Both the position numbers and the translations under genes were made by a program. From Sedimenticola sp. (GTDB taxonomy: Bacteria; Pseudomonadota; Gammaproteobacteria; Chromatiales; Chromatiaceae), in the NCBI GenBank assembly GCA_011051655.1, contig DRKS01000073.1:1-52564 (forward strand): DNA of 52,564 nucleotides, given 5' to 3'. How positions within the stretch are numbered: the first letter of the stretch is position 1; the number at the start of each line of letters is the position of its first letter. The notes under the pieces are model-generated. The model had not been told where the DNA came from. It worked only from the letters and a program-made list of their open reading frames with translations, and searched no databases. Positions 3,302-52,347 of this stretch are shown piece by piece.

Positions 3302-4368
3302 GGCTGAAGATACTGGATATCTATATCGGCCGGGCCGTCGTTGTCGGCACCCTGGCGGCCATGATGGTGCTGCTGACCCTGCTCGGCTTCCTGGCGTTGA
3401 TGGACGAGCTGGGGGATGTGGGCAGGGGCCGTTACCAGACCGGGGACGCCTTTCTTTTCGTCATGATGATCCTGCCCCGCTATGCCTACGAGGTCTTCCC
3501 CGCCGCCGCCCTGCTGGGAAGCCTGATCGGCCTTGGCGGCATGGCCAGCCATTCGGAGCTGATTGCCATGCGGGCGGCCGGGGTGTCCTTCGCCCGCATC
3601 GTGCTCGCCGTGCTGAAGACCGGCGTCGCAATGATGCTGGTCGCCATCCTGGTGGGGGAACTGGTGGCGCCGGAGGCCGAGCAATACGCCCAGACCATGC
3701 GCTCCCAGGCCATGGCCAAGCAGGTCACCCTCAAGACCAAGTACGGCTTCTGGGCCCGGGACGGCGACGCCTATATCAATATCCGCAGAATCCTGCCGGG
3801 CTCCCGGCTGGAGGACATCTATATCTACGAATACGGCAAGAACAGGCGCCTGAGGTTTGCGACCCATGCCGCCTTCGCCCATCATCAGAAGGGCCAGTGG
3901 CATCTGCGGGACATCAGCCAGAGCCAGTTTACGGAGGAAGGGGTGGAGGTTCGCAGGCTGAAGCGGGCGACCTGGGATTCCATGCTGGATCCGGGGTTGC
4001 TGAGCGTAGTGTCGCTCAACCCGCATATCCTGCCCGCCTGGGGCCTGTACAAGTATATCCAGTTCATGCATGCCAACGGCCAGGAGGCCAAGGACTACGA
4101 GGTGGCCTTTTGGGGCAAGATCGTCACCCCCCTGGTGACCCTGGTCATGCTCTATCTCTCCCTGCCCTTCGTCTTCGGCCTGCTGCGCAATGTGGGCATC
4201 GGACAGCGGCTGTTTATGGGGTCCATGGTCGGCAGCGGATTTTATCTGGTGAGCAAGGCCTTTTCGTACATGGCCGTGGTTTATGACATGAACCCCCTGT
4301 TTGCCGCCTCCTTTCCGGCGCTCGTGCTCTTGTGCGCGGCGCTCTTCTTCAGCCACAGGGTCAATTGA
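3298..4368 (+). CDS. lptG: LPS export permease LptG
   Basis: Partner of LptF in the inner-membrane LPS extractor. The 356-residue product begins MRLKILDIYIGRAVV, followed by a membrane helix, the RAAGVSFARI coupling-helix region that contacts the ATPase LptB, a periplasmic domain and three C-terminal helices. The start at 3298 overlaps the lptF stop. An in-frame start 120 nt upstream would lie inside lptF and add a proline- and alanine-rich tail foreign to the family. The order lptF-lptG opposite pepA is the common one. Confidence 0.95.
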   Translation: MRLKILDIYIGRAVVVGTLAAMMVLLTLLGFLALMDELGDVGRGRYQTGDAFLFVMMILPRYAYEVFPAAALLGSLIGLGGMASHSELIAMRAAGVSFARIVLAVLKTGVAMMLVAILVGELVAPEAEQYAQTMRSQAMAKQVTLKTKYGFWARDGDAYINIRRILPGSRLEDIYIYEYGKNRRLRFATHAAFAHHQKGQWHLRDISQSQFTEEGVEVRRLKRATWDSMLDPGLLSVVSLNPHILPAWGLYKYIQFMHANGQEAKDYEVAFWGKIVTPLVTLVMLYLSLPFVFGLLRNVGIGQRLFMGSMVGSGFYLVSKAFSYMAVVYDMNPLFAASFPALVLLCAALFFSHRVN

Positions 4369-30161: not shown

Positions 30162-30252
30162 GGAGAGGTGGCAGAGCGGTTGAATGCGGCGGTCTTGAAA
30201 ACCGTTGAGGGTTTGTAGCCCTCCGTGGGTTCGAATCCCACCCTCTCCGCCA
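30162..30252 (+). tRNA. tRNA-Ser (TGA)
   Basis: A 91-nt cloverleaf with acceptor stem GGAGAGG/CCTCTCC, a long variable arm as in serine tRNAs, anticodon TGA in the loop CTTGAAA, T-arm GTGGGTTCGAATCCCAC and an encoded CCA. TATGCT followed by TCGCCTCC at 30133-30146 could be a -10 box with a GC-rich discriminator, as is common for stable RNA genes; no good -35 is seen. A strong terminator begins at the last base of CCA. Confidence 0.97.
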
Positions 30253-30483
30253 AAATCAGAAAGGCCCCACCGTTTTTTGGTGGGGCCTTTCTGATTTTTA
30301 TGGGCAGGGCAGCCATGATGAGACCCCATAGGTTCGACGGATCGGCAGGGAAGCCGGTCCGGACGCCGGCCCAAGCCGGCGCCCCGCAGGGGTGAGGCGC
30401 AGGGAAGCGCCGAATCAATCCCACCCTCTCCGCCAAAATCAGAAAGGCCCCACCGTTTTTTGGTGGGGCCTTTCTGATTTTTA
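30234..30483 (+). repeat. rtT-like repeat: tRNA-Ser tail and terminator duplicated at 183 bp
   Basis: The last 19 nt of the tRNA (AATCCCACCCTCTCCGCCA, 30234-30252) and the terminator after it recur identically at 30417-30483, giving two exact 67-bp copies at a 183-bp interval. The 116 bp between them include GATGAGA (30317), GGTTCGAC (30331) and a GC-rich hairpin-prone part. The same layout is seen behind tRNA-Ser(GCT) at 52092-52292. The Escherichia coli tyrT locus has known 178-bp repeats that each start with 19 bp of the tRNA-Tyr 3' end and give the rtT RNA; this looks like the same kind of element. Confidence 0.85.
30252..30300 (+). terminator. Terminator of tRNA-Ser(TGA), first copy
   Basis: A perfect 20-bp stem formed by 30252-30271 and 30279-30298, with a 7-nt T-rich loop. 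The core is AGGCCCCACC/GGTGGGGCCT, and the flanks make A/T tracts on both sides, so it can act in both directions. It is duplicated exactly at 30435-30483. Confidence 0.9.
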
Positions 30484-51620: not shown

Positions 51621-51818
51621 ATGTTGATTCTAACTCGCCGCGTAGGCGAAACACTGATGATTGGCGATGAGGTGACCGTGACGGTGCTTGGTGTAAAGGG
51701 AAACCAAGTGCGGATCGGGGTAAACGCACCTCGAGACATAACAGTGCACCGCGAGGAAATCTACGAGCGGATCAAACGGGAACAAGCCCAGCAGCAAGCT
51801 GAGGGTGGAGAAGAATAG
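51621..51818 (+). CDS. csrA: Carbon storage regulator CsrA/RsmA
   Basis: Dimeric RNA-binding regulator that blocks or stabilises target mRNAs at GGA motifs. The product has 65 residues: [20 protein letters not shown], with Leu4 and Arg7, then [20 protein letters not shown] with Arg in the conserved RNA-binding place. The ATG at 51621 gives the invariant family N-terminus; longer in-frame starts are rejected. A stem-loop follows the gene. Confidence 0.98.
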
Positions 51819-51853: not shown

Positions 51854-51877
51854 TCATACCACGGGTTTTGATCTAAG

Positions 51878-52004
51878 GAGAGATGACCGAACGGCTGACA
51901 TTGCTCCGGGTGATTATGCCAGCCGTAAGCCGGCCCCTGGGGGCCATGGGGAAGTCTGGAGCAATCGCCCTCTGCAATGGGCCTGTGGCCCATGCAGGGG
52001 GCGC
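51878..52004 (+). other. Structured spacer between csrA and tRNA-Ser with tRNA-like start
   Basis: GGAGAGATGACCGAACGGCTGA (51878 onward) matches the first 22 nt of the adjacent tRNA-Ser at all but three or four positions, then diverges. Next, ATTGCTCC (51900-51907) pairs with GGAGCAAT (51958-51965) and encloses GC-rich inner pairs. A second long hairpin, GCCCTCTGCA with TGCAGGGGGC plus inner GGGCC/GGCCC, covers 51967-52003. This could be a decayed tRNA-Ser copy or a distinct structured RNA. No protein gene is supported. Confidence 0.5.
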
Positions 52005-52019
52005 GTAAGAATAGTTGCT

Positions 52020-52110
52020 GGAGAGATGGCCGAGTGGCTGAAGGCGCTCCCCTGCTAAGGGAGTATGGGTTAAAAGCCCATCGAGGGTTCGAATCCCTCT
52101 CTCTCCGCCA
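52020..52110 (+). tRNA. tRNA-Ser (GCT)
   Basis: A 91-nt cloverleaf with acceptor stem GGAGAGA/TCTCTCC, anticodon GCT in CTGCTAA, a long variable arm (TATGGGTTAAAAGCCCAT), T-arm GAGGGTTCGAATCCCTC and encoded CCA. The place downstream of csrA and before tRNA-Arg matches serV-argV in Escherichia coli. Confidence 0.97.
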
Positions 52111-52292
52111 TCTTCTTTAAAAGGGGTTGGTTTTCAGCCCCTTTTAAAGAAGATTCGCTGTCGAAGAGATATAGGGATGAGAACCCGAAAAGAGGGTTCG
52201 ACGCAATCGCCGGGAGCGATTGTGAACGTGCGGAGCACGGCCCCGAAGGGGCGCAGGGTAGGATGCCCGGAGTAATCCCTCTCTCTCCGCCA
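52092..52292 (+). repeat. rtT-like repeat: tRNA-Ser(GCT) tail duplicated at 182 bp
   Basis: The last 19 nt of the tRNA (AATCCCTCTCTCTCCGCCA, 52092-52110) recur exactly at 52274-52292. Between the copies lie the hairpin at 52111, then GATGAGA (52176) and GGTTCGAC (52195) as in the element at 30234, and CCCCGAAGGGGCG (near 52241), which matches CCCCGCAGGGGTG there. Here the hairpin is not duplicated after the second copy. Confidence 0.83.
52111..52153 (+). terminator. Long hairpin directly after tRNA-Ser(GCT)
   Basis: A perfect 16-bp stem formed by 52111-52126 and 52138-52153 with an 11-nt loop, starting at the base after CCA. The stem is A/T-rich at its foot and GGGG/CCCC near the loop. The T-run on the outgoing side is short, so termination may be partial. 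Confidence 0.7.
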
Positions 52293-52347
52293 TATTGGGG
52301 CAGCCTCGAGTTTCTGTTCACGAGTAGCGAGTCCAATCAAAAAGGCC

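Follow-up and report, generated by a model that had tools for sequence, protein, structure and literature searches.

Results

A tRNA-linked repeat behind tRNA-Ser(GCT)

We analyzed a 52,564-nt stretch of DNA from Sedimenticola sp. (contig DRKS01000073.1, hereafter the window) and, within it, a repeat element that lies behind the tRNA-Ser(GCT) gene. All features of this locus are on the + strand. The gene occupies 52020..52110 (ARAGORN; Rfam tRNA 60.6 bits). Its last 19 nt, from A58 in the T loop to the CCA end (52092..52110, the host tail), recur as an exact direct repeat at 52274..52292 (the tail copy, 19/19 identical). A preliminary description had reported this copy at an interval of 182 nt, and the interval is correct. 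The same description gave the element the whole of 52092-52292. The tail repeat does have this extent; the element proper starts at about 52163, and 52110..52154 forms a separate spacer hairpin (20-nt arms, 95% complementary) that the terminator scan did not flag.

The element (52163-52292) begins with a 5' arm (52163..52178) that is complementary to the tail copy in the predicted fold (own-host pairing rank 0.0). Arm and tail copy form an outer helix, equivalent to the T stem and part of the acceptor stem of the host, around five hairpins, H0 to H4. H0 (52181..52199, GAACCC/GGGTTC) precedes a core module (52202..52273) that is delimited by the fold, by a core alignment (A8) and by a match to R3, a core-only covariance model (52197-52278). 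The core comprises H1 (52202-52224, loop CGGGA), H2 (52227-52239), H3 (52240-52252) and H4 (52256-52268, loop GGA). The fold has an energy of −60.4 kcal/mol (z −3.2), and 1 of 200 shuffled sequences folded equally well. Promoter and terminator scans found nothing within the element; the terminator scan gave one terminator-like site, at 52295-52309, versus 1.1 expected.

We assign this element to the tRNA-linked repeats (TLRs), rtT/rrB type, represented in E. coli by rttR and rrA/B/F. Passages of PMC8144298 give as the hallmark of TLRs an 18–19 bp copy of the host end, cite Egan and Landy 1978 and Rudd 1999 for their description, and state that TLRs were first described in 1978, that an early rtT phenotype was retracted and that no function was known before that work. 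The position and strand of the Ser(GCT) element would fit transcription together with the tRNA. Homology of its core to the E. coli TLRs was seen with a second covariance model, R2, which has a hand-written structure, includes the tail columns and was built without E. coli: R2 matched four E. coli units at tyrT (58.7-62.6 bits) as well as rrB, which follows 5S rRNA (39.2 bits). R2 was trained on tRNA-linked elements, the Ser(GCT) element included, and R3 on the Ser(GCT) core and E. coli rrB among others, so the 105 and 87 bits of the Ser(GCT) copy come from models that contain that copy.

At curated cut-offs, Rfam found only tRNAs in the window. In a permissive search, RtT RNA (RF00391) matched the Ser(GCT) copy with 30.2 bits (E 9.7e-4), below the curated gathering score of 45 and among 36 mostly chance matches; the same family matched the Tyr(GTA) element of this genome with 53 bits. 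RtT RNA and the Ser(GCT) copy are alike in arrangement and core motifs, but RtT lies behind tRNA-Tyr and our copy behind tRNA-Ser. RtT is reported in parts of PMC4986893 and, for Thioalkalivibrio, of PMC8092127; a tandem-GA motif appears in parts of PMC7657543 and PMC8250186.

Related elements in the same genome

The first element of the window lies behind tRNA-Ser(TGA) (30162..30252, + strand, ARAGORN) at 30304..30435 on the same strand (R2 85 bits), with an exact tail copy at 30417-30435. It had been proposed to share its core with the Ser(GCT) element. The training set of R3 did not include the Ser(TGA) core, and R3 found this core at 30333-30420 (48.9 bits, E 2.9e-14), confirming the proposal.

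Exact 19-nt tail copies were present behind 6 of the 43 ARAGORN tRNAs read in the genome, with up to 800 nt read behind each: Gln(TTG) (+152), Tyr(GTA) (+187), Pro(CGG) (+180), Pro(GGG) (+181, with an additional imperfect second unit at +362), Ser(TGA) (+183) and Ser(GCT) (+182). A tail match at Glu(CTC) was rejected: it is merely a second intact tRNA-Glu. Behind the transfer-messenger RNA (tmRNA) on contig C70 is a related element that lacks an intact tail copy, and contig C66 carries a piece with a tmRNA-like tail. BLAST of 52092-52296 against the genome hit the Pro, Gln and Tyr elements (E 1.5e-14 to 1.1e-6); the Ser(TGA) element was not listed in this search.

R3 found 27 core copies above 37 bits in this genome. 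Eleven lie behind tRNAs or the tmRNA or carry their tails, 12 are part of a dispersed repeat, and four are elsewhere. One of these four (C90:44281-44355) is in frame in the open reading frame of a 479-aa DEAD-box helicase, inserted between ...VLKIVACC and RQTLLLSATL.... The dispersed repeat is ∼320 bp long, its copies are mostly 95-98% identical in pairs, and several contigs end in it. Its 12 strong copies are on C6, C29, C12, C49, C65, C71, C3, C59, C61, C92, C101 and C67, with a cut one on C13, and the assembly breaks at this repeat.

The 5' arm is matched to the host tail

We aligned 25 elements. RNAalifold returned only 12 pairs on this alignment; the model derived from it (R1) was not used, and the structure of R2 was drawn by hand. 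In the hand-drawn structure 79.0% of the cells were paired, versus 67.0 ± 0.9% in column shuffles (0/500), and both-sided changes numbered 103, versus 37.1 ± 5.1 (0/500). The arm helix had both-sided changes at 9 of its 14 pairs, some arm starts having been picked by complementarity to the tail, which favours pairing there. Pairing and covariation thus rule out that the cores are unrelated GC-rich hairpins, the result by which the preliminary description was to be refuted.

To offset the bias of the alignment, we gave every host tail equal pairing freedom and compared arms and tails in 81 elements from 52 genomes, one element per genome and host. The arms paired with the tails of their own hosts at −18.3 kcal/mol, versus −12.6 ± 0.34 kcal/mol after permutation (0/5000), and 44 of the 81 arms preferred their own tail over every tail from a host for another amino acid. 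These results suggest that each element RNA can form a host-specific mimic of the T stem and acceptor. As to whether the 5' arm is a plain copy of the 5' strand of the host, a long copy was found in a single element (L098), 1 of 109 above the 99% control. At the three variable positions of the T stem to the left of TTCGA, agreement with the host was slightly higher than expected by chance (1.36 versus 0.94 ± 0.08, 0/5000; n = 78 after three rows without the TTCGA motif were dropped).

The family is widespread and not confined to tRNA-Ser

Covariance-model searches bore out a family in this genome, as described above, and in others of its class. At E ≤ 0.001, R2 had matches in 110 of 274 genomes from this class. 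It gave 163 matches in 106 stretches, 138 of them with an upstream tRNA or tmRNA in the stretch; the other 25 had no host in the stretch, several of these being at contig ends. Over the last 19 nt, 76 of the 138 matches were identical to their host and 104 agreed at 17 positions or more. Compared with hosts for other amino acids, the tails agreed at 10.8 positions on average and at 17 or more in 3 of 4947 comparisons. The 34 matches with lower tail identity have decayed or shifted ends, or are second units or other structures. Thus, the elements are a family with a common core and with the 3' end of the gene in front, as had been claimed. The claimed tie to tRNA-Ser did not hold. Hosts at 17/19 or better comprise 18 types in 52 genomes: four anticodons each for Ser and Arg, three for Pro, two for Gln, and one type each for Tyr, Glu, Val, Lys and tmRNA. 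The six tRNAs of our own genome include Gln, Tyr and Pro.

We also collected cores with a sequence pattern, which gave at least 126 matches in at least 120 stretches. The pattern itself contains GAC and GGA and cannot show their conservation, and some places are present twice under different names (for example L089/L143, L094/L125 and L110/L330), which slightly inflates raw counts. Among the 126 matches listed, from named genomes, a tRNA lay upstream of 39 and downstream of 15, and 72 had none. Those counted as downstream include a core between the 23S and 5S rRNA genes of Serratia marcescens (L248), since tRNA-Asp follows. All 54 tRNA-adjacent cores among the matches listed were in sense. The nearest tRNA or tmRNA was within 450 nt for 180 of 231 model matches, again all in sense, an orientation that holds by construction for matches of the tail type. 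Orientation relative to long reading frames was uninformative (11 sense, 15 antisense, 37 in none, 9 at edges).

We then scored stems between the flanks of the cores; 92 of the 126 listed matches were usable for this test and were then thinned by left flank. Away from tRNAs the flanks formed a weak stem (−6.27 versus −5.43 ± 0.32, 11/2000, n = 45), behind tRNAs there was no stem signal (324/2000, n = 16), and in front of tRNAs the result was the opposite of a stem (1968/2000, n = 7).

In four stretches (L070, L064, L069, L113) a single tRNA is followed by two or three almost identical units in tandem, regularly spaced, in line with the 175-bp copy-number variant that a section of PMC2658671 describes for rtT in Salmonella. 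In the viral collection the sole core-pattern match was at 145-169 of an IMG/VR contig (L360). A 3.8-kb contig filed under Desulfosporosinus (L259) has a flank and core nearly identical to those of Serratia L248, and is possibly contamination.

Cores interrupt the loops of extra tRNA copies

In several genomes the core lies within a longer copy of a tRNA. In an uncultured gammaproteobacterium (L358), nt 1-22 of tRNA-Ser(TGA) are followed by a core, nt 22-73, a second core and then ATCCCACC; the intact tRNA-Ser(TGA) starts 137 nt after the second core match. A tRNA-Ser copy in a member of the Lysobacterales (L271) has one core in the anticodon loop (nt 36 is followed by nt 38 with one base lost) and another in the T loop. 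Copies of nt 1-59 that then run into a core occur for Val (L190 and L342), Pro (L170) and Arg (L267), and a copy of nt 1-57 for Gln (L349), each upstream of the intact gene. In L098, nt 25-59 of tRNA-Arg are followed by a core and by nt 59-77, and this core is 98.7% identical to the core of the adjoining Pro element.

To the left of the core, 13 of the 126 listed matches had a flank that aligned to a tRNA with a score of at least 19 (60 shuffled controls, at most 13). Seven of these 13 end at the T loop and six at the D loop. With the covariance model, 16 of 218 matches reached this score (six T loop, six D loop, four other tRNA pieces); the two sets overlap, L110 and L330 being one place. The core followed TTCGA in 12 of 13 T-loop rows, the pattern rows being from among the matches listed, and followed TTCG in L119; the seven T-loop rows of the pattern set end in GA by construction. 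The core thus looks mobile: it sits, in sense, in a T, D or anticodon loop where an additional copy of a tRNA accompanies the intact gene.

In every tRNA the T-loop site is 18–19 nt from the CCA end. This position would explain why the host-matched tail has a constant length of ∼19 nt. The preliminary description had the element take the end of whichever gene it sits behind. The match between tail and host is real; the direction is better reversed, tail and arm deriving from a copied host RNA that received a core in its T loop. The step from a full tRNA copy to an element that keeps only the tail is one that we infer, also for the Ser(GCT) element.

Paired GGA loops in the core

The Ser(GCT) element has two predicted GGA loops, CGGGA at 52211-52215 and GGA at 52261-52263. 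In 79 non-redundant tRNA-linked cores, GGA was present in the first loop of 52, in the last loop of 46 and in both loops of 44, versus 16 of 124 middle hairpins. The last loop of some cores reads ACAGGGATGT, which we take to agree with the CsrA consensus obtained by systematic evolution of ligands by exponential enrichment.

According to passages of PMC8144298, CsrA binding by E. coli RrB has a dissociation constant near 100 nM in vitro, and the gel shift of RrB is lost when three GGAs are changed. The same passages report that the 19 tRNA-linked TLRs of E. coli are predicted non-binders of CsrA and that deletion and overexpression of TLRs had modest effects only. RrA, RrB and RrF of E. coli, which bind CsrA and Hfq, resemble our element in having GGA in the first and last hairpin loops (A8). 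They lie behind 5S rRNA, take their tail from it and have measured binding, whereas here the loops are predicted and lie behind a tRNA. It is a tentative proposal, made from these loops, that the element may be co-transcribed with its tRNA and may bind CsrA through two GGA hairpin loops as RrB does.

Discussion

Origin of the element

Taken together, these results make it probable, in our judgment, that the element is a TLR with a host-matched RNA arm and tail that goes back to a core set into the T loop of a tRNA copy; binding of CsrA is a more tentative part of this reading. A dispersing core module would have inserted into an additional copy of the host tRNA, at its T loop, as in the precise cases seen elsewhere. 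That copy would later have shed its 5' part or seen it decay, so that arm, core and tail persist. An RNA produced from the element, whose arm and tail are identified by sequence and covariation, would pair its host-identical tail with the host-matched 5' arm, mimicking a CCA-ended T stem and partial acceptor with the hairpin core in place of the T loop. Selection on base pairs and recombination between the two tails may keep the tail matched to the host.

Several observations weigh against this reading. The 5' arm of the Ser(TGA) element breaks the arm rule, matching its own tail poorly (rank 0.85). Refolding tRNA-Ser(GCT) together with its element gave a slightly lower energy with exchanged tails (−133.3 versus −130.1 kcal/mol). 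A longer host copy to the left is absent from 108 of the 109 tail-type elements, and only L098 shows a stage midway from full tRNA copy to tail-only element. GGA occurs in neither loop in 25 of the 79 cores. For 70 of 84 cores the nearest relative is in another genome, and core relatedness thus speaks only weakly for spread within genomes. Finally, our genome, 95.8% complete, has no match to PF01797 (Y1_Tnp).

A wider statement of the same idea seems to us evenly balanced. The core would be a widespread mobile palindrome of gammaproteobacteria, ∼70-80 bp long, that enters tRNA copies at their T, D and anticodon loops, in sense and at YGA^A, and is also found in rRNA spacers, intergenic repeats and a reading frame. 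TLRs would be T-loop insertions in decayed host copies, many of them planting paired CsrA-type GGA hairpins in stable-RNA transcripts.

The same mobility could belong to a selfish or neutral palindrome that has no cellular role and whose presence in tRNA transcripts, in intergenic regions and in a reading frame is tolerated; a Y1/HUH mover could insert single-stranded DNA at loops. In favour of this account are tRNA-loop insertions at YGA^A, whose two sides have no more than one base in common, the in-frame helicase copy, the 12 copies in the dispersed repeat and the Y1_Tnp genes present in seven of eight genomes tested. Yet our own genome lacks a Y1_Tnp match, and a core stood beside only one of the four Y1_Tnp loci read. 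Moreover, the sense orientation of all 54 tRNA-adjacent matches listed and the covariation of the arms with the host point to selection on RNA. We regard a purely selfish palindrome as the less likely account, though the strongest competitor of the T-loop origin.

An ancient, conserved small RNA that passed down vertically with the tRNA in front of it would account for the wide spread (110 of 274 genomes), the strong covariation and the nearest core relatives in other genomes (70 of 84). Gene conversion would keep the tails and compensatory change the arms, and the cores in loops would be side products. However, the cores are not grouped by host: between genomes, likeness was 0.688 for the same amino acid and 0.684 for different amino acids. 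Instead, cores on hosts for different amino acids within one genome were more alike (0.738 versus 0.684 ± 0.014 expected, 0/2000), with near-identical pairs on different hosts in genomes G282 and G048, and 72 of the 126 listed copies lie away from tRNAs. Within the tail-type set, the signal for spread of cores inside genomes is modest. We find vertical inheritance improbable on this evidence. Although integrases often use the 3' part of tRNA genes, T loop to CCA, as their site, the 19-nt repeat is most unlikely to be an attachment-site scar, the att core of an element that integrates at tRNA 3' ends, since one core lies behind 18 host types with differing tails and has a host-matched 5' arm, and cores occur in D and anticodon loops too.

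Relation to known systems

Compared with the TLRs of E. coli, the core is homologous (R2 matches the tyrT and rrnB units) and tandem units are possible in both. The difference is that here, in another gammaproteobacterium, a tRNA-linked element has the paired GGA loops, whereas use of CsrA in E. coli is predicted for the rRNA-linked rrA/B/F only. Beyond the TLR papers searched are the host-matched 5' arm, the mobile-looking core and the paired GGA in 44 of 79 cores, and the TLR literature searched gave no account of T-loop insertion or of the origin of TLRs.

The core can also be likened to Rickettsia palindromic elements, which are short palindromic repeats that occur also in frame within genes, in a different bacterial class; this likeness is to their general description, and they are not known to have host-matched tRNA arms. 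Repetitive extragenic palindromes (REP) and bacterial interspersed mosaic elements (BIMEs) with their REP-associated tyrosine transposases are, like the core, short dispersed imperfect palindromes; the likeness is one of layout, and our genome has no Y1_Tnp match. Part of PMC2965389 lists rtT-like members among enterobacterial BIMEs.

If the T-loop origin is true, simple geometry accounts for the 19-nt tail and its match to the host, and a single hairpin module joins the TLRs, the segment behind the 5S gene of E. coli rrnB and dispersed intergenic repeats. With paired GGA loops on many tRNA-linked copies, a growth-coupled CsrA sponge would be directly testable outside E. coli.

Other features of the locus and genome

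The tRNA-Gly genes TCC and CCC of this genome have truncated copies of their own 5' part upstream (L013, about 3376-3520; L014, about 196-390; Rfam tRNA 34.7 and 32.8 bits). Next to each copy comes GC-rich sequence in which CAGGA and ACAGGGA motifs occur. This is a mirror, head-type arrangement, and its core is unlike R2.

Just upstream of the Ser(GCT) locus lies csrA (51621..51818, + strand; Pfam CsrA 89.9 bits). Between csrA and the intact tRNA-Ser(GCT), the segment 51877-52010 begins with a direct repeat of nt 1-22 of this tRNA (51877..51898, + strand; 19/22 by eye). The copy breaks off in the D loop and is continued by a GC-rich hairpin stretch (fold z only −1.6). The core of this copy matches neither R2 nor R3; the copy itself resembles the D-loop copies of other genomes.
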